In this document: positions 38,536 through 47,519 of the stretch, piece after piece | Position numbering within the stretch: position 1 is the first letter of the stretch | Layout of the letters: each line of letters starts with the position of its first letter | Source: Natronomonas aquatica | GTDB lineage: Archaea > Halobacteriota > Halobacteria > Halobacteriales > Haloarculaceae | DNA: 64,000 bases | Assembly (NCBI RefSeq): GCF_024449025.1 | Contig: NZ_JAHLKM010000006.1 | Coordinates: forward strand, 62,001 to 126,000 | Reading direction: 5' to 3' | Position numbers and translations under genes: made by a program | Notes under the pieces: generated by a model | Told to the model about the DNA's origin: nothing | Database searches by the model: none | What the model saw: the letters and a program-made list of their open reading frames with translations, nothing else

Positions 38536-39882
38536 CTACTCTTCGAGGGTGGTCTCCTCGATCGCCGGCGGTTCGCCCTCGTCGGCCTGCCGACGGACGT
38601 CGACGTGGTAGTGTTCGAGGATGTCCCGGCCGAGGAGGAGCGGATAGTCCATGTGGGCGCGGTCCTCGATGCTCGCGGTGACAGTGTGTTGTTTCCCGCC
38701 GACGCCGACGACCAGATCGACGACGGGCCGCGAGCGCCCGGATTTGACGCTGCCGGATTTGATCTTGACGATGTCCTTGATCGGTCCGGTCCCGATCTCG
38801 GCGGCGAGCTGGGCGTCGATACTCGTCCGGGTCGCGCCGGTGTCGGATTTCGCCATGACGGTCCGCTGGCCGCTCGTACCCATCGCGACCACTTCCTCGA
38901 CGTACCCGATGACGGGCGTCTCCGTCGGGACCGTCTTCTCGGGGCGGGGCATACACGCCGGCCGGGAGTCGTCGAGGTTCGCCGTCAGCTCGTACACCCG
39001 TTCGGGGTTGACCTCGCCGCCGGCGCGTTCGATCGCGAGGCGAGCGATGTGAGGCGCCGGCGAACGCCCCGTCGCCTTGAACAGCCCCCGGAACCCCGCC
39101 GTCGGGTTCACTTCGAGGAGATGATACCCGTCTTCCCCCTCGACGATGTCGACGCCGGCGTAGTCGAGGCCGATCTCGTCGGTCGCGCGCTTGGCCATCG
39201 TGACGATCTCGTCGGACAGTTCGTCGGTTACGTCGACGACTTCGCCGCCCAACGCGACGTTCGTCCGCCACTCGCCTTCGGGTGCGTAGCGGTTCATCGC
39301 CCCAACGACGCGTTCGCCGACGACGTACACCCGGAGATCGTGGTGCTGCTCTTCGTCGTGCTCTATGAGTTCCTGCAGGAAGGCCTGTCTGGCCCCGACC
39401 ATCGGGTTCACCGGATCGTCGGTGTCGAGCTTCCAGGTCCCGCCGCCGTGGGTGCCGATCGCCGTCTTGTAGACGACCTCATCGCCGAACCGGTCCCGAC
39501 GGGTGTTCAAAAGATCGCCCGAAAGCGCCATCAGCGCGTCCGGAACCGGGAGCCCGGCCTCCGCGAGAGCGGTTCCGGAGGCGAACTTGTGCATCGCCGT
39601 CATCGTCGCCATCGGCGTATTCAGCATCGGGCAGATCCGATCGAGCATCGTCGCCAATCCGAGCGCCTCGGCGGGCTGTTCTTCCTTCGAAAGCAACAGC
39701 CGGTTGACGATGATGTCGACGTCCGGTTCGAGCGCGACCTCCCCGTCGGTTATCTCGACGGCTGTGTTTTCGGTTCGGAGCCAAGCGGTGTCGTATCCGA
39801 GATCGTCGACGGCGTTGAGGATCGCCTTCGTCTCCTTGGAACTGTGGAGACTGAGAACGCCGACGGTGAGCGAATCGGTCAT
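38536..39882 (-). CDS. RimK-type ATP-grasp ligase fused to aspartyl-protease-like domain
   Basis: A 448-residue fusion. Residues about 1-300 are a RimK-family ATP-grasp ligase (AIGTHGGGTWKL loop, metal site LLEVNPTAG at 256-264), which normally adds glutamate to a protein or cofactor end. Residues about 325-435 form a retropepsin-like domain (family once called ATP-dependent zinc protease) with DTGATRTS from Asp347 and LLLGRDILEH. In bacteria these are often neighbouring genes. The start is the ATG at 39882. It faces an AstE-like deacylase gene 102 bases away, suggesting a write-and-erase modification system. Confidence 0.87.
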   Translation of the reverse strand: MTDSLTVGVLSLHSSKETKAILNAVDDLGYDTAWLRTENTAVEITDGEVALEPDVDIIVNRLLLSKEEQPAEALGLATMLDRICPMLNTPMATMTAMHKFASGTALAEAGLPVPDALMALSGDLLNTRRDRFGDEVVYKTAIGTHGGGTWKLDTDDPVNPMVGARQAFLQELIEHDEEQHHDLRVYVVGERVVGAMNRYAPEGEWRTNVALGGEVVDVTDELSDEIVTMAKRATDEIGLDYAGVDIVEGEDGYHLLEVNPTAGFRGLFKATGRSPAPHIARLAIERAGGEVNPERVYELTANLDDSRPACMPRPEKTVPTETPVIGYVEEVVAMGTSGQRTVMAKSDTGATRTSIDAQLAAEIGTGPIKDIVKIKSGSVKSGRSRPVVDLVVGVGGKQHTVTASIEDRAHMDYPLLLGRDILEHYHVDVRRQADEGEPPAIEETTLEE

Positions 39883-39984
39883 ACCGTGCTTGCGACCGGT
39901 TCGGGCAAAACGCTGCCGATACGGCGGACGCCCCCTCGGCACCGCGGTCCACGCGTTTATACTCTTGCTCTCCGAGGCTCGGGT

Positions 39985-40983
39985 GTGACCACAGCCTTCA
40001 CGTACAACGGCGGGGCCGTCGAACCGGGCGAGACCACGAACGTCCGTTTCACCGTCAGCGAGACCTACCTCGGGGACCCGGTTCGGATCCCGGTGACGAT
40101 CGTCAACGGCGAACACGAGGGTCCGACGCTGTGTCTCGCGGCAGCAACCCACGGCGACGAACTCAACGGGATCGAAATCGTACGGGAGGTCGCCCACGAG
40201 TGGGATCACTCGGATCTCCGCGGGACGCTCGTCTGTCTGCCCGTGCTGAACGTGCCGGGATTCATCGCCCAACAGCGCTACCTTCCGATCTACGATCGGG
40301 ATCTGAACCGATCGTTCCCCGGCCAGTCCGCCGGGACCAGCTCGAAACGGATCGCCGATCGGGTGTTCCGGAACTTCATCGAGCCGTGCGATCTCTGTCT
40401 GGATTTTCACACGTCGACGCGTGGACGGAGCAACATGTTACACGCCCGTGCCGATATGGCCGACTCCGCGGTCGCGCGGGTCGCGAACGCCTTCGCCTCG
40501 AACGTCATCATCGACAGCGAGGGACCGGACGGCTCGTTGCGCCGGGAGGCGAGCAAGGCGGGGACGCCATCGATCACCGTCGAACTCGGCGAGGCCCACC
40601 GGTTTCAGCGACCGCTCATCGACGCCGCGCTCGAGGGGGTCCTGTCGGTGATGGCCGAGTTCGGCATGCTGGAGACGGAAACCGTCAAATGGCCCGGCTG
40701 GCGGACCGTTATCGAGGGATCCGACGAGAAGACCTGGCTGCGGGCCGACGCCGGCGGGCTCGTCGATATGCACCACGAACGGGGCTCGCTCGTCGAAGCC
40801 GGCGAGACTGTCTGTACGATCTCGGATCCGTTCAAGGCCGAGGTGACCAAAATCGAGGCGCCCTTCACCGGACTCCTCATCGGGATCCCCCAGAACCCCC
40901 TCGTGTACCCGGGAAACCCGCTGTGTCACCTGGTCGCTCTCGAGGAGCCCACGCTCCGGGCGGTCCGACAGATACGCGGGTAG
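39985..40983 (+). CDS. Succinylglutamate desuccinylase/aspartoacylase family protein
   Basis: A 332-residue zinc amidohydrolase of the AstE/ASPA family. Zinc ligands are His56 and Glu59 (AAATHGDELNGIE) and His142 (LDFHTSTRG), with substrate-binding DLNRSFPG and VELGEAH. The C-terminus (about 235-320) is a barrel-sandwich domain with KAEVTKIEAPFTG, as in family members. The start is a GTG at 39985, because no ATG lies near and the sequence from there aligns with the family. It is divergent from the RimK fusion. The physiological substrate is unknown and may be an acylated amino acid or modified glutamate tail. Confidence 0.85.
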   Translation: MTTAFTYNGGAVEPGETTNVRFTVSETYLGDPVRIPVTIVNGEHEGPTLCLAAATHGDELNGIEIVREVAHEWDHSDLRGTLVCLPVLNVPGFIAQQRYLPIYDRDLNRSFPGQSAGTSSKRIADRVFRNFIEPCDLCLDFHTSTRGRSNMLHARADMADSAVARVANAFASNVIIDSEGPDGSLRREASKAGTPSITVELGEAHRFQRPLIDAALEGVLSVMAEFGMLETETVKWPGWRTVIEGSDEKTWLRADAGGLVDMHHERGSLVEAGETVCTISDPFKAEVTKIEAPFTGLLIGIPQNPLVYPGNPLCHLVALEEPTLRAVRQIRG

Positions 40984-41075: not shown

Positions 41076-41468
41076 ATGAGTCAATCGTACGACCGAGGTC
41101 TGATAGAGGACTTCGGGCGGTGGCAAGAGTTCTCCGCCGGGATGTGGGCCTGGATCTTCCACAAGTTCACCGGCTGGGTACTCATCGGCTATCTGTTCAC
41201 ACACGTCGCCGTGTTGAGTACCGCGACGGTGGACGGGGCGACCTACACGTCGACCCTCCAGGGGCTCGAGAGCCTCCTTCTCGTCCGGTTTCTGGAGGTC
41301 GGCCTGCTCGCGGTCGCCGCCTTCCACATACTCAACGGGATCCGGCTGCTGTTCGTCGATCTCGGCGTCGGGCTCGGGGCACAGGACAAGGCGTTTTACG
41401 CCGCGCTGGTAGCGACCGCGGCCGTCACGGTCGCGAGTATTCCGACGTTCCTCGTGGGGGCGTTCTGA
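41076..41468 (+). CDS. sdhC: Succinate dehydrogenase cytochrome b subunit
   Basis: A 130-residue membrane subunit of respiratory complex II with three hydrophobic helices (about 25-50, 72-92 and 108-128). Conserved features are the quinone/heme-side segment [15 protein letters not shown] and histidines in [10 protein letters not shown] and AFHILNGIR, likely heme ligands. The start lies about 25 bases after the TATA-like box. It is first in sdhCDBA, and sdhD begins two bases after its stop. Confidence 0.9.
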
Positions 41469-41469
41469 T

Positions 41470-41835
41470 ATGGCGGAACATTACTCCTCCTTCGAGCCGA
41501 AGGGGACCCGCTGGCTGATACAGCGGATTACGGCCGCGTTCCTAGTAGTCGTGTTGGCGTATCACTTCATGATGCTCCACTTCGTCAACCACGCGGCCGA
41601 GATCACCTTCGCCGGGACACAGGTCCGGATGAGCCAGGTCGGCTACTTCGCGACGATGGTGCTGTTTTTGATCACCGCGGCGTTCCACGGCGTCAACGGT
41701 GTGTACAACGCACTCGTCAATCAGGGTCTCGACGGCACCCAGAAAACCGTCGTCAAGTGGCTTCTCGTTGTCGCTGGAGCGCTCTTGATCGTCCAGGGGA
41801 TCCGCGTCGCGAGCGCCATGACGGGGCTGTTCTAA
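41470..41835 (+). CDS. sdhD: Succinate dehydrogenase membrane anchor subunit
   Basis: A 121-residue membrane anchor with three helices, starting MAEHYSSFEPKGTRWLIQRI. The segment YHFMMLHFVNHAAEIT and the later FHGVNGVYNAL carry candidate heme/quinone histidines. The conserved N-terminal WLIQRITAAF motif is typical of haloarchaeal SdhD. It is packed between sdhC (one base gap) and sdhB (two base gap). Confidence 0.9.
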   Translation: MAEHYSSFEPKGTRWLIQRITAAFLVVVLAYHFMMLHFVNHAAEITFAGTQVRMSQVGYFATMVLFLITAAFHGVNGVYNALVNQGLDGTQKTVVKWLLVVAGALLIVQGIRVASAMTGLF

Positions 41836-41837
41836 CC

Positions 41838-42701
41838 ATGAGTACGCAAATCCAGGAAAGCGAGACCGAAACGGAGACAGAAGAGACGTCCGAACACCAA
41901 ACGCGGCGGCTGGCCGAGAAGCGCGAACGGGCGGACATGGCCGAACGGGCCGAGACCGACCTCTCGGGCGCCGACGAGACGGCCCGGATCAAGGTCTTCC
42001 GGTACGACCCCGAGGTCGAGGGCAAGAAGGATCCCCGGTTTGACACCTTCGAGATCCCGTTCACCAAGGGGATGACGGTGCTCGATGCCCTCATCTACGC
42101 GCGGGATCACTTCGACTCCTCGCTTACCTTCCGGCACTCCTGTCGGCAGGCCATCTGTGGGTCGGACGCGCTCTTTATCAACGGCCGACAGCGGCTCGGC
42201 TGTAAGACCCAGATGGTCGATCTGGAGTGGCCGGTCCAGATCGAACCGCTGCCGCACGCCGAGGTCGTCAAGGACCTGGTCGTCGATATGGAACACTTCT
42301 ACGACCAGATGGAGGCCGTCGAGCCGTACTTCCAAACGAACGACCTCCCGGACGGTGAACTCGAAGAACAGAAACAGACCAGAGAGAACCGAGAGAAGGT
42401 GAAGATGTCCACGCGGTGTATCTGGTGTAGCGCGTGCATGTCTTCGTGTAACATCGCGGCGGGCGACAACAAGTATCTAGGTCCGGCGGCGATCAACAAG
42501 GCCTACCGCTTCGCGATGGATCACCGGGAGGGCGAGGACATGAAGGAACACCGCATCAACATCATCGAGCAAGAACACGGCGTCTGGCGGTGTCAGACGC
42601 AGTTTTCCTGTACGGAGGTGTGTCCCAAAGACATCCCGTTGACGGAACACATTCAGGAGCTGAAACGCGAGGCAGTCAAAAGCAATCTGAAGTTCTGGTA
42701 A
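41838..42701 (+). CDS. sdhB: Succinate dehydrogenase iron-sulfur subunit
   Basis: A 287-residue electron-transfer subunit. An acidic N-terminal extension of about 50 residues precedes a ferredoxin-like domain with the [2Fe-2S] cysteines in HSCRQAICGSDAL and RLGC. The C-terminal domain has the clusters CIWCSACMSSC and TEVCPKD for [4Fe-4S] and [3Fe-4S] centres. Electrons pass from SdhA to the quinone site in SdhCD. The extension is longer than in bacterial SdhB and is probably disordered. Confidence 0.95.
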   Translation: MSTQIQESETETETEETSEHQTRRLAEKRERADMAERAETDLSGADETARIKVFRYDPEVEGKKDPRFDTFEIPFTKGMTVLDALIYARDHFDSSLTFRHSCRQAICGSDALFINGRQRLGCKTQMVDLEWPVQIEPLPHAEVVKDLVVDMEHFYDQMEAVEPYFQTNDLPDGELEEQKQTRENREKVKMSTRCIWCSACMSSCNIAAGDNKYLGPAAINKAYRFAMDHREGEDMKEHRINIIEQEHGVWRCQTQFSCTEVCPKDIPLTEHIQELKREAVKSNLKFW

Positions 42702-42738
42702 CCGTACGCTCAAGACGCTCAAATCCCAACTACAAACT

Positions 42739-44574
42739 ATGACAATACACGAACACGACGTCGTCGTGGTCGGTGCCGGCGGAGCCGGACTCCGCGCCGC
42801 GATCGCGGCCGACGAGGAAGGCGCCGATGTGGCGATGGTCACGAAACTCCACCCGGTCCGTTCGCATACCGGCGCGGCCGAGGGCGGTATCAACGCCGCC
42901 CTTCGGGACGGCGACGACTGGGAACTGCACGCCTACGACACCATGAAGGGGTCGGACTACCTCGGGGACGCCCCCGCTATCGAGACACTCGCCCAGGACG
43001 CTCCCGAAGAAGTCATCCAGCTGGAGCACTGGGGGATGCCCTTCTCGCGGGAGGACGACGGCCGCGTCTCCCAGCGGCCCTTCGGCGGGCTGTCGTTCCC
43101 CCGGACGACCTATGCCGGCGCCGAGACCGGCCACCATCTGCTGCATACGATGTACGAGCAGGTCGTAAAACGGGGAATCAAGGTCTACGACGAGTTCTAC
43201 GTCAGCCGGCTCGCGGTCACTGACCACGACGACCCGGAGGATCGGGCGTGTCACGGCTGTATCGCCTACGACATCAAATCCGGCGAGGTAGTCGGCTTCC
43301 GGGCGAGAAACGGCGTCGTACTGGCGACCGGCGGCGACGGGCAGGTCTTCGATCACACGACAAACGCGGTCGCGAACACCGGCGACGGCCCGGCGATGGC
43401 CTACCGGGCCGGTGTCCCCGTAGAGGACATGGAGTTCGTTCAGTTCCACCCGACGACGCTGCCGTCGACGGGCGTACTCATCTCCGAGGGCGTCCGCGGG
43501 GAGGGCGGCATCCTCTACAACAGCGAGGGCGAGCGGTTCATGTTCGAATCCGGCTACGCGAACAACGCGGGCGAACTCGCCTCCCGCGACGTCGTCTCTC
43601 GGGCCGAGCTGACGGAGGTCAACGAGGGCCGCGGGTTCGAAGACGAGTACGTCTATCTCGATATGCGTCACCTCGGCGACGAGCGCATCTACGACCGGCT
43701 GGAGAACATAATCCACCTCGCGGAGGACTTCGAGGGGGTCAACCCCGTCGAGGAGCCGATGCCGGTCAAACCCGGCCAGCACTACCACATGGGCGGCATC
43801 GAGACGAACGAGCACGGCGAGACCTGCGTATCGGGCCTGTACGCCGCCGGCGAGTGTGCGTGTGCCTCGGTTCACGGCTCGAACCGCCTCGGCGGCAACG
43901 CCCTGCCGGAACTCATCGTCTTCGGGGCCCGTGCGGGACACCACGCAGCCGGGCGCGATCTCGGAGAAGCGGAGGTGCCGACCGGCCCCTCGGCCGAAAG
44001 TGAATCCGAGGATTCGCTCGACACGCCGGTCAATCCCGGCGCACTCGATGCCTCCGACAGCGACGTCGCGGCCGACGGCGCCCTCGTCGAACCCGACGAA
44101 CTGGTCGAACGCGCCGTCGAGACCGAACGCGATCGAATCGAAACGATGCTCGAATCCGACGGGACGAACCACGCCGAGATCCGCGAGGACCTCCAGCAGG
44201 CGATGACCGAGAACGTCAACGTGTTCCGGGAGAAAGAGAGCCTGAAGGAGGCGCTGGAGGTCATCCGCGAGTGCCGCGAGCGCTACCAGAACGTCGCCGT
44301 CTCGGATCCCTCCCGGACGTTCAACACCGATCTCATCCACACGATCGAGACCCGCAACCTCATCGACATCGCCGAGACGATCACGCTCGGGGCCCTCGCA
44401 CGCGATGAGTTCCGGGGGGCCCACTGGCGCCGGGAACACCAGGAACGGAAGGACGACGAGTGGCTCAAACACACGATGATCGCCTGGAACGACGGTTCGC
44501 CGCAGCTCTACTACAAGCCGGTCGTCCTCGAAGGCGAGAACAAAGAGTACGAACCGAAGGTCCGCTCGTACTGA
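42739..44574 (+). CDS. sdhA: Succinate dehydrogenase flavoprotein subunit
   Basis: A 611-residue catalytic subunit that oxidises succinate to fumarate with FAD. The dinucleotide fold VVVGAGGAGLRAAIA (8-22) is followed by RSHTGAAEGG, whose His43 corresponds to the covalent FAD attachment site. The active-site stretch HPTTLPSTGVLISEGVRGEGG and the FAD-binding GSNRLGGNALPE follow. A variable acidic insert (about 415-455) splits the capping region. It lies 37 bases after sdhB, completing the complex II operon. Confidence 0.96.
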   Translation: MTIHEHDVVVVGAGGAGLRAAIAADEEGADVAMVTKLHPVRSHTGAAEGGINAALRDGDDWELHAYDTMKGSDYLGDAPAIETLAQDAPEEVIQLEHWGMPFSREDDGRVSQRPFGGLSFPRTTYAGAETGHHLLHTMYEQVVKRGIKVYDEFYVSRLAVTDHDDPEDRACHGCIAYDIKSGEVVGFRARNGVVLATGGDGQVFDHTTNAVANTGDGPAMAYRAGVPVEDMEFVQFHPTTLPSTGVLISEGVRGEGGILYNSEGERFMFESGYANNAGELASRDVVSRAELTEVNEGRGFEDEYVYLDMRHLGDERIYDRLENIIHLAEDFEGVNPVEEPMPVKPGQHYHMGGIETNEHGETCVSGLYAAGECACASVHGSNRLGGNALPELIVFGARAGHHAAGRDLGEAEVPTGPSAESESEDSLDTPVNPGALDASDSDVAADGALVEPDELVERAVETERDRIETMLESDGTNHAEIREDLQQAMTENVNVFREKESLKEALEVIRECRERYQNVAVSDPSRTFNTDLIHTIETRNLIDIAETITLGALARDEFRGAHWRREHQERKDDEWLKHTMIAWNDGSPQLYYKPVVLEGENKEYEPKVRSY

Positions 44575-46883: not shown

Positions 46884-47489
46884 CTACCCCTGGGTTACCT
46901 CTTCGACCGCCTCGACGACGTCCTCATCGACGCGCCAAAGATACAGCGTCGCGTAACTCCGGTAGGGCGCCCACCGTTCGGCTTCGCTCACCATCTCCTC
47001 TCGGCTCATTTCTTCCTCGAAGAGCGTTCGCATTCCCTTCCGGACACCCAGATCGCCGACCGGAAACACGTCCGGACGCCCCAGCGAGAACAGAAGCTGC
47101 ATCCGGGCCGTCCACTCGCCGACGCCCTTGATAGTCGTTAGTTCCTCGATGACGGCCGTTTCGTCCATTCTCTCGAAGTACGCCCGGTCGTACTCGCCGT
47201 CGAACGCCCGGGCGATGTTACGGACGTACTCGGTTTTCTGCCGGGAGAGCCCACAGTTTCTGAGCAACTCCGGATCGGCGGCGAGGACCCCCGACGGGGT
47301 CACCTCGATGGACTCGAACAGGCGCTCTCTCGTCGCCTCTGCCGACGCCATCGAGACCTGCTGGCGCAGGACCGAGACGACGAGTCGGCGGAACATGTCC
47401 TCGGCCGGATCGAGTCCGAGCCGGCCGTAGCGTTCGACGAGCGGGCCGAGACGGTCATCGGAACGGAGGTGATCGTGTGGTGTCGACAT
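46884..47489 (-). CDS. HhH-GPD DNA glycosylase (AlkA-like)
   Basis: A 201-residue base-excision repair glycosylase. The helix-hairpin-helix is TTIKGVGEWTARMQLL, and the catalytic Asp lies in the following VFPVGDLGVRKG. The length fits the minimal AlkA/MagIII type acting on alkylated bases; there is no Fe-S cysteine cluster. The start at 47489 gives MSTPHDHLRSDDRLG; a longer frame upstream (47516) runs to the border of cysE. The neighbours are unrelated genes. Confidence 0.88.
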   Translation of the reverse strand: MSTPHDHLRSDDRLGPLVERYGRLGLDPAEDMFRRLVVSVLRQQVSMASAEATRERLFESIEVTPSGVLAADPELLRNCGLSRQKTEYVRNIARAFDGEYDRAYFERMDETAVIEELTTIKGVGEWTARMQLLFSLGRPDVFPVGDLGVRKGMRTLFEEEMSREEMVSEAERWAPYRSYATLYLWRVDEDVVEAVEEVTQG

Positions 47490-47519
47490 GGGTGAACGGA
47501 GGGACGCCGGGGTCAAAGC

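Follow-up and report, generated by a model that had tools for sequence, protein, structure and literature searches.

Gene content of the locus

The window considered here is a stretch of 64,000 nucleotides from the haloarchaeon Natronomonas aquatica (contig NZ_JAHLKM010000006.1, positions 62,001 to 126,000 of the forward strand), in which two divergently transcribed genes encode a RimK-family ligase with a C-terminal RimB-type retropepsin domain, hereafter KB, and a zinc hydrolase of the AstE/AspA fold, hereafter AstE (Table 1). Both genes show coding-like GC by codon position, third positions reaching 0.85 in KB and 0.84 in AstE. KB matches PF08443 (RimK; 82.7 bits, cut-off 21) and PF05618 (Zn_protease/retropepsin; 39.4 bits, cut-off 27) and is placed in the RimK family by TIGR00768 (150 vs 143.4 bits), while its sequence matches in the PDB comprise LysX and RimK structures and 9g59, a 'putative ATP-dependent zinc protease'. 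AstE matches PF24827 (AstE_AspA_cat) over residues 46–224 with 167 bits against a cut-off of 25. An earlier sequence-only reading had described one polypeptide combining an ATP-grasp ligase with a retropepsin-like domain (Asp347-Thr-Gly-Ala), 102 bases from a divergent gene with the zinc ligands His56, Glu59 and His142; the domains, the residues and the length of the gap all proved exact. The fusion is not a sequencing artefact, because each of 108 distinct relatives, drawn from 126 fetched loci and used for the KB residue counts below, is a single open frame with the domains in identical order.

Table 1. Features of the KB–AstE locus in window coordinates.
Feature	Position	Strand	Details
KB gene, RimK-family ligase with C-terminal RimB-type retropepsin	38536-39882	minus	448 aa; ATG start, TAG stop; PF08443, PF05618 and TIGR00768 over cut-off
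RimK ATP-grasp domain of KB, residues 97-274	39061-39594	minus	PF08443
RimB-like retropepsin domain of KB, residues ~322-432	38587-38919	minus	PF05618; alignment with 22 bacterial RimBs
Variable acidic C-terminal tail of KB, residues 433-448, Glu-Glu end	38539-38586	minus	hypothetical S6-like acceptor tail
Divergent intergenic region between KB and AstE	39883-39984	none	102 bp
AstE/AspA-fold zinc hydrolase gene	39985-40983	plus	332 aa; GTG start; PF24827
sdhC, sdhD, sdhB, sdhA (succinate dehydrogenase)	41076-44574	plus	conserved neighbour, probably outside the system

Distribution and gene arrangement in haloarchaea

A survey of 292 genomes of the class revealed a bimodal distribution of best KB E-values, with 268 genomes at or below 1e-115 (lower-scoring matches in G124, G131 and G202 being counted as present) and 24 at or above 4e-25; AstE matches were strong in 271 genomes and weak in 21. 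Both genes occur in 268 genomes, neither in 21, AstE without KB in three (G110, G168, G184) and KB without AstE in none (Fisher p 4e-29, a value that ignores relatedness and the fact that adjacent genes can vanish in a single deletion). At least seven genera (g4, g8, g15, g19, g32, g34, g37) mix members having both genes with members having neither, which suggests repeated joint loss. In G110 a remnant of KB comprising residues 2–66 alone lies beside an intact AstE, so that AstE can outlive its partner. Among the 101 genomes with paired coordinates, the genes are divergent and within 1.6 kb of one another in 99 (gap 83–1519 bp, median 157) and within 300 bp in 92, the two exceptions being G136, where they lie 195 kb apart, and G196, where KB is at a contig edge. 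The sequence-only reading had proposed such a neighbourhood survey and named a failure of the fusion and the hydrolase to co-occur in other haloarchaea as its refutation; the opposite was found.

The most frequent setting in 20 loci compared is a block consisting of an alkA-like gene, KB, AstE and sdhCDBA, and this synteny with succinate dehydrogenase (SDH) and HhH-GPD glycosylase genes, seen in most of the 20, is what would be expected if KB and AstE were simply old neighbours sharing no pathway. We regard that explanation as very improbable, given that G136 retains both genes despite their separation, that the pair is found in different surroundings on some plasmids, that bacteria and methanogen relatives also show linkage of these functions (see below), and that SDH remains in all 24 genomes without KB. 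The last observation also led us to reject an SDH-linked housekeeping role. The plasmid pairs outside the sdh block include divergent ones beside hut genes in Halolamina sp. CBA1230 and beside acetolactate synthase in Halorarius halobius, and a co-directional one away from sdh in Haladaptatus pallidirubidus; AstE adjoins three of seven annotated haloarchaeal plasmid copies of KB and is not adjacent to the other four. The AlkA-like HhH-GPD DNA glycosylase gene, often a close neighbour elsewhere, lies 7 kb from KB in the present window (46884-47516, minus strand), and its candidacy as a fourth component was dropped after Pfam identification.

Catalytic and substrate-contact residues of KB

The ligase residues K99, K139, R184, R198, D245, E257 and N259 of KB correspond to RimK positions 100, 141, 189, 203, 248, 260 and 262, and each is conserved in 106–108 of the 108 KBs, with one gap each at D245, E257 and N259. 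K99, K139, D245, E257 and N259 are presumably the ATP and Mg positions. Polyglutamate bound to Pseudomonas RimK contacts S7, R8, S14, R64, S68, R189 and N262 (Thompson et al., PMC10092738; here and below, comparisons with published work draw on titles, abstracts and passages of the papers cited). Five of these seven contacts are kept in KB, as S11 (for S7; 103/108), R61 (for R64; 108/108), S65 (for S68; 103/108), R184 (for R189; 108/108) and N259 (for N262; 107/108), and alpha-linked glutamate is thus the most likely tag.

Other established roles of RimK relatives do not fit KB, which falls below the equivalog cut-offs for LysX (TIGR02144, 113.2/275.6 bits), MptN (NF040720, 120.8/350) and CofF (TIGR04443, 43.8/300). 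These three roles were rejected on that basis and, for LysX, also on the presence of a separate true LysX gene in all 10 haloarchaeal genomes checked.

In the retropepsin domain, both the DTG and the hhGR signatures are present, as DTGA starting at D347 and LLLGRD at residues 415–420. The catalytic D347 is found in 107 of the 108 KBs and G418, R419 and D420 in all. AlphaFold2 gave a poor model of the isolated domain (pLDDT 55.6). The one KB without D347, plasmid-borne in Natrononativus amylolyticus (L190:5001-6296), carries Asn at this position and keeps its Glu-Glu end, and is predicted to be a natural protease-dead variant.

A conserved Glu-Glu terminus

The C-terminal tail of KB varies in content and in length (6–24 residues beyond the last VDV-like motif), yet the last residue is Glu in 106 of 108 KBs and the last two are Glu-Glu in 91, the remaining Glu ends being 14 Leu-Glu and one Gly-Glu. 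When only distinct 15-residue tails are counted, 93 of 95 end in Glu and 80 of 95 in Glu-Glu, and Asp, which makes up 17% of residues 3–15 from the end, is never the final residue. Divergent plasmid KBs without an adjoining AstE likewise end in Glu-Glu. In a control set of 320 putative haloarchaeal genes, 54 products have a terminal Glu and 20 a terminal Glu-Glu, 13 of these 20 being KB itself, and no other family of at least six members in the set exceeds 33% Glu or 17% Glu-Glu. Across 20 genomes, the 22 families in the vicinity of the S10/spc operon reach at most 87% Glu and 27% Glu-Glu, and Glu-Glu ends do not exceed 27% in any of the 31 control families. Judged by these percentages, a terminal Glu by itself is no more than moderately unusual for an acidic tail, whereas a conserved Glu-Glu is unusual. 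The ending resembles that of E. coli S6, the acceptor of RimK, which is encoded with Asp-Ser-Glu-Glu at its end, and one haloarchaeal KB (L076) terminates in Gly-Asp-Ser-Glu-Glu.

From sequence comparison we posit that the target, which the sequence-only reading had left unnamed, may be the Glu-Glu tail of KB itself. Alternatively, the ligase could act on another protein, such as one of the ribosome or of translation, with the KB tail serving as a pseudo-substrate or regulatory element lodged in the ligase or protease site. Bacterial RimK does modify S6 in trans, and a conserved Glu-Glu on a variable tail is as compatible with a mimic as with an acceptor. Within the S10/spc region, the only region tested, Glu-Glu is conserved at the end of none of the 22 families across the 20 genomes, and no family differs visibly between the 13 KB-bearing and 7 KB-lacking genomes. 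A ribosomal acceptor encoded in that region was accordingly rejected (0/22 families with a conserved Glu-Glu or KB-dependent end), and we consider a separate target improbable, though a serious alternative.

Structure and predicted specificity of AstE

The zinc ligands H56, E59 and H142 of AstE are invariant in 25 aligned sequences, and R105, N108, R109 and E200 are likewise invariant among aligned relatives. We take R105, N108 and R109, which lie in a conserved RDLNR stretch, to be the superfamily residues that bind a free alpha-carboxylate, and such binding would suit the release of a C-terminal residue. AstE misses the equivalog cut-offs for DoeB (TIGR02994, 110.7/402.7 bits), AstE proper (TIGR03242, 21.2/305.65) and aspartoacylase (PRK02259, 37.4/180), and its PDB sequence matches are DoeB-type structures. 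An AlphaFold2 model (pLDDT 88) aligns with the cyanophycin dipeptide hydrolase CphZ at Z 29.4 (rmsd 3.0, 301 residues) and, among carboxypeptidases, with Csd4 (Z 19.5) and the tubulin deglutamylase CCP5 (Z 17.5, 12–13% identity). Because of the fold neighbours CphZ and CCP5, AstE is on this modelling more likely to be a peptidase that finishes glutamate removal than an acyl deacylase. The sequence-only reading had suggested a pathway that adds, trims and removes amino-acid or acyl tags. The addition and trimming of amino-acid tags is consistent with the domains present, with the invariance of the catalytic residues and with the very strong coupling of the fusion to AstE; the acyl deacylase that it also envisaged is the less likely of the two activities.

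Alternatively, the pair might act on a small molecule, KB extending a cofactor or metabolite such as the F420 tail or an osmolyte by an amino acid and AstE removing an acyl or amino-acyl group. Small molecules are the substrates of the RimK relatives MptN, CofF and LysX, the nearest characterised fold to AstE is that of a metabolite deacetylase, and no CofF exceeds its cut-off in the 10 haloarchaeal genomes. This role appears unlikely in view of the missed MptN, LysX and CofF cut-offs, the true LysX encoded separately in all 10 genomes, the persistence of a third RimK-like gene in the KB-lacking genomes tested, and the retropepsin endopeptidase domain, for which a cofactor offers no obvious use. 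The third gene, located in the present genome at G000:C28:24854-25435 (minus strand), is itself below the LysX and CofF cut-offs and recurs in nine further haloarchaea irrespective of whether they have KB.

Relatives outside the haloarchaea

Among 246 genomes of the phylum, PF05618 occurs in fusion-sized frames in haloarchaea only. In family f13, which comprises methanogen relatives, three neighbouring genes encode, in this order, retropepsin, RimK and AstE; AstE adjoins RimK in 8 of 9 loci searched, and the trio is 68–85% identical to that of Methanolobus bombayensis. The f13 RimKs pass the S6-ligase model (479.5 vs 331 bits), and bacterial S6 is, to our knowledge, absent from archaea.

A scan of GTDB genomes with AstE returned 577 relatives, the best 80 of which (79 bacterial, one methanogen) were used. 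RimB and RimK homologues are both present in 50 of these 80 loci, in agreement with the earlier proposal that the three genes are often neighbours in bacteria, while nine loci have RimK only, one RimB only and 20 neither; 19 of the 20 genomes in the last group have a RimB-like gene elsewhere. In 115 genomes of the Alcanivorax order, a strong AstE (AstE1, E <=1e-90) was detected in 54, and a strong RimB (E <=1e-24) accompanies it in 47 of these 54 as against 17 of the 61 without AstE1; in 34 of the 54, at most a few kb separate RimB from AstE. Twelve RimB matches in this order are in hybrid-sized frames, and all 12 combine a DTGA or DSGA motif with a ligase motif in one frame. Matches on Vibrio plasmids were rejected as ligase-then-protease fusions, the one that was read consisting of a ligase gene followed in the same frame by a retropepsin gene 48 bp away. 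It is plausible that this gene order represents a precursor of the haloarchaeal domain order.

A proposed alpha-polyglutamate cycle

The same functions cluster as rimB–rimK–AstE in bacteria and in the methanogen relatives, and we therefore interpret KB and AstE as the haloarchaeal counterpart of the Rim polyglutamate system. Based on sequence evidence, we assign a probability of roughly 50% to the pair forming a Rim-type alpha-polyglutamate cycle, in which the substrate of the ligase, its role as its own acceptor, the specificity of AstE and the chemistry would be as follows. By analogy with its family, the RimK domain, probably in a tetramer like known RimKs, would attach glutamate to a C-terminal glutamate at the expense of ATP. 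Tentatively, KB's own Glu-Glu tail would be among the acceptors, resembling that of S6 but located on the enzyme, and with the acceptor carried in this way S6 would be dispensable. Long tails would be trimmed to a few glutamates by the retropepsin domain of KB, acting as a dimer inside the tetramer, as expected from RimB biochemistry. Lastly AstE, a carboxypeptidase-superfamily zinc enzyme, would act as an exo- or dipeptidase, completing the removal by taking off the last glutamates or by hydrolysing released oligoglutamates to free glutamate. A more specific form of this cycle, which we consider doubtful, would make KB a glycogenin-like self-priming glutamate polymerase, the ligase extending its own Glu-Glu tail, the retropepsin releasing alpha-polyglutamate and AstE recycling the last glutamates.

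Several observations count against a polyglutamate cycle of this kind. The K domain scores far below the cut-off of the S6 glutamate ligase equivalog (NF007764, 64.7 vs 331 bits), and two of the seven polyglutamate contacts are altered in KB, R8 to Leu (L12) and S14 to Glu (E17). The closest fold to the AstE model is DoeB-type (Z ~35), and DoeB is a deacetylase, hence a deacylase. Two KBs lack the final Glu, ending in Ser-Lys and Glu-Leu, and Glu alone is common at the ends of haloarchaeal acidic tails, reaching the 87% noted above in one control family. The Glu-Glu tail is not general to the Rim system, since it is found in 0 of 68 RimKs, 2 of 54 RimBs and 1 of 86 AstEs from bacteria and methanogens and in none of the 12 bacterial hybrids. 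Finally, the large bacterial genome G609 has four retropepsin matches and no AstE1, so that AstE is not supported as a general reset enzyme of Pseudomonas.

Comparison with known systems

Modification of the ribosome by RimK and RimB has been treated as bacterial, with open questions about its targets and about which enzyme takes off the last glutamates. The RimB of P. fluorescens leaves 4–5 glutamates on S6, and a second 'reset' protease must exist according to section 10 of the same paper (PMC7343187); RimB, which in addition stimulates RimK, requires about five glutamates (PMC11957791). KB shares with the Pseudomonas RimB/RimK system of S6/RpsF polyglutamylation the ATP-grasp glutamate ligase, the DTG retropepsin, the catalytic residues and most polyglutamate-contact residues (PMC7343187, PMC11957791), and differs from it in being one polypeptide, in its AstE partner and in the Glu-Glu tail on the enzyme. 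A fusion as such is already known, in that a bacterial RimB–RimK hybrid (Desulfotalea) was described in a study that surveyed 5959 bacterial accessions (PMC11957791). The bacterial order is RimB followed by RimK, both in that paper and in our 12 motif-checked frames (12/12), whereas in KB, with proteins recovered by query and domain coordinates taken from Pfam, it is RimK followed by RimB in 108 of 108. The haloarchaeal fusion is thus distinguished by its reversed order, its AstE partner and its Glu-Glu tail.

The titles, abstracts and passages of the papers found contain no mention of the opposite domain order or of the Glu-Glu tail of the haloarchaeal fusion. In the same material the AstE partner is named in no Rim paper; subscription papers are outside this scope, and one of them, Iyer et al. 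2009, reportedly deals with RimK gene neighbourhoods and could already mention the trio.

The near-universal coupling in haloarchaea (268/292 genomes) of a ligase–retropepsin fusion to one defined zinc hydrolase supplies a candidate enzyme for the reset step, AstE, and a candidate acceptor, the KB tail, in organisms without S6. If self-priming were true, a single polypeptide would combine writer, eraser and substrate, and the bacterial AstE beside rimB–rimK would become a candidate for the 'reset' protease postulated by Grenga et al. 2020, in species with the gene.

Two polymer systems from other contexts share parts of this logic. On tubulin, glutamates added by ATP-grasp-type TTLL ligases are removed by CCP deglutamylases, which are zinc enzymes of the carboxypeptidase superfamily. 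The TTLL/CCP enzymes differ in being eukaryotic and remote in sequence, the likeness to CCP5 being one of fold only. In the cyanophycin cycle CphA/CphB/CphZ, the polymer-cutting peptidase CphB is not known to be a retropepsin. As here, that cycle combines an ATP-grasp polymer synthase, a polymer-cutting peptidase and an AstE-fold zinc dipeptidase, and it differs in its Asp-Arg polymer and the lack of a fusion (PMC12661447). The rlo operon of P. aeruginosa also links a retropepsin to an ATP-grasp protein, together with secreted proteases and an inactive-transglutaminase membrane protein that are not seen here (PMC12239564).

Additional RimK, retropepsin and AstE groups

Further observations concern the relatives. 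A bacterial RimB from a Kiloniellaceae MAG (metagenome-assembled genome; L129:6545-7081, plus strand) ends in four glutamates. PF05618 also matches methanogen ORFs (open reading frames) of ~180 aa (L091:9757-10299, minus strand; L096, L098) that have HELEHL instead of DTG; these resemble peptide deformylase relatives by eye and the match may be spurious. A second bacterial RimK subfamily of ~400 aa near AstE (L115:11060-12268, minus strand; L137:2260-3465, plus strand) bears TrkA_C, a ligand-binding domain, at its C terminus, a hint that the ligase may sense a ligand. In the Alcanivorax order, a more distant second AstE group (G610:C2:292088-293732; G531, G606, G614) adjoins, or lies a few kb from, a second retropepsin, with which it possibly forms a parallel system.

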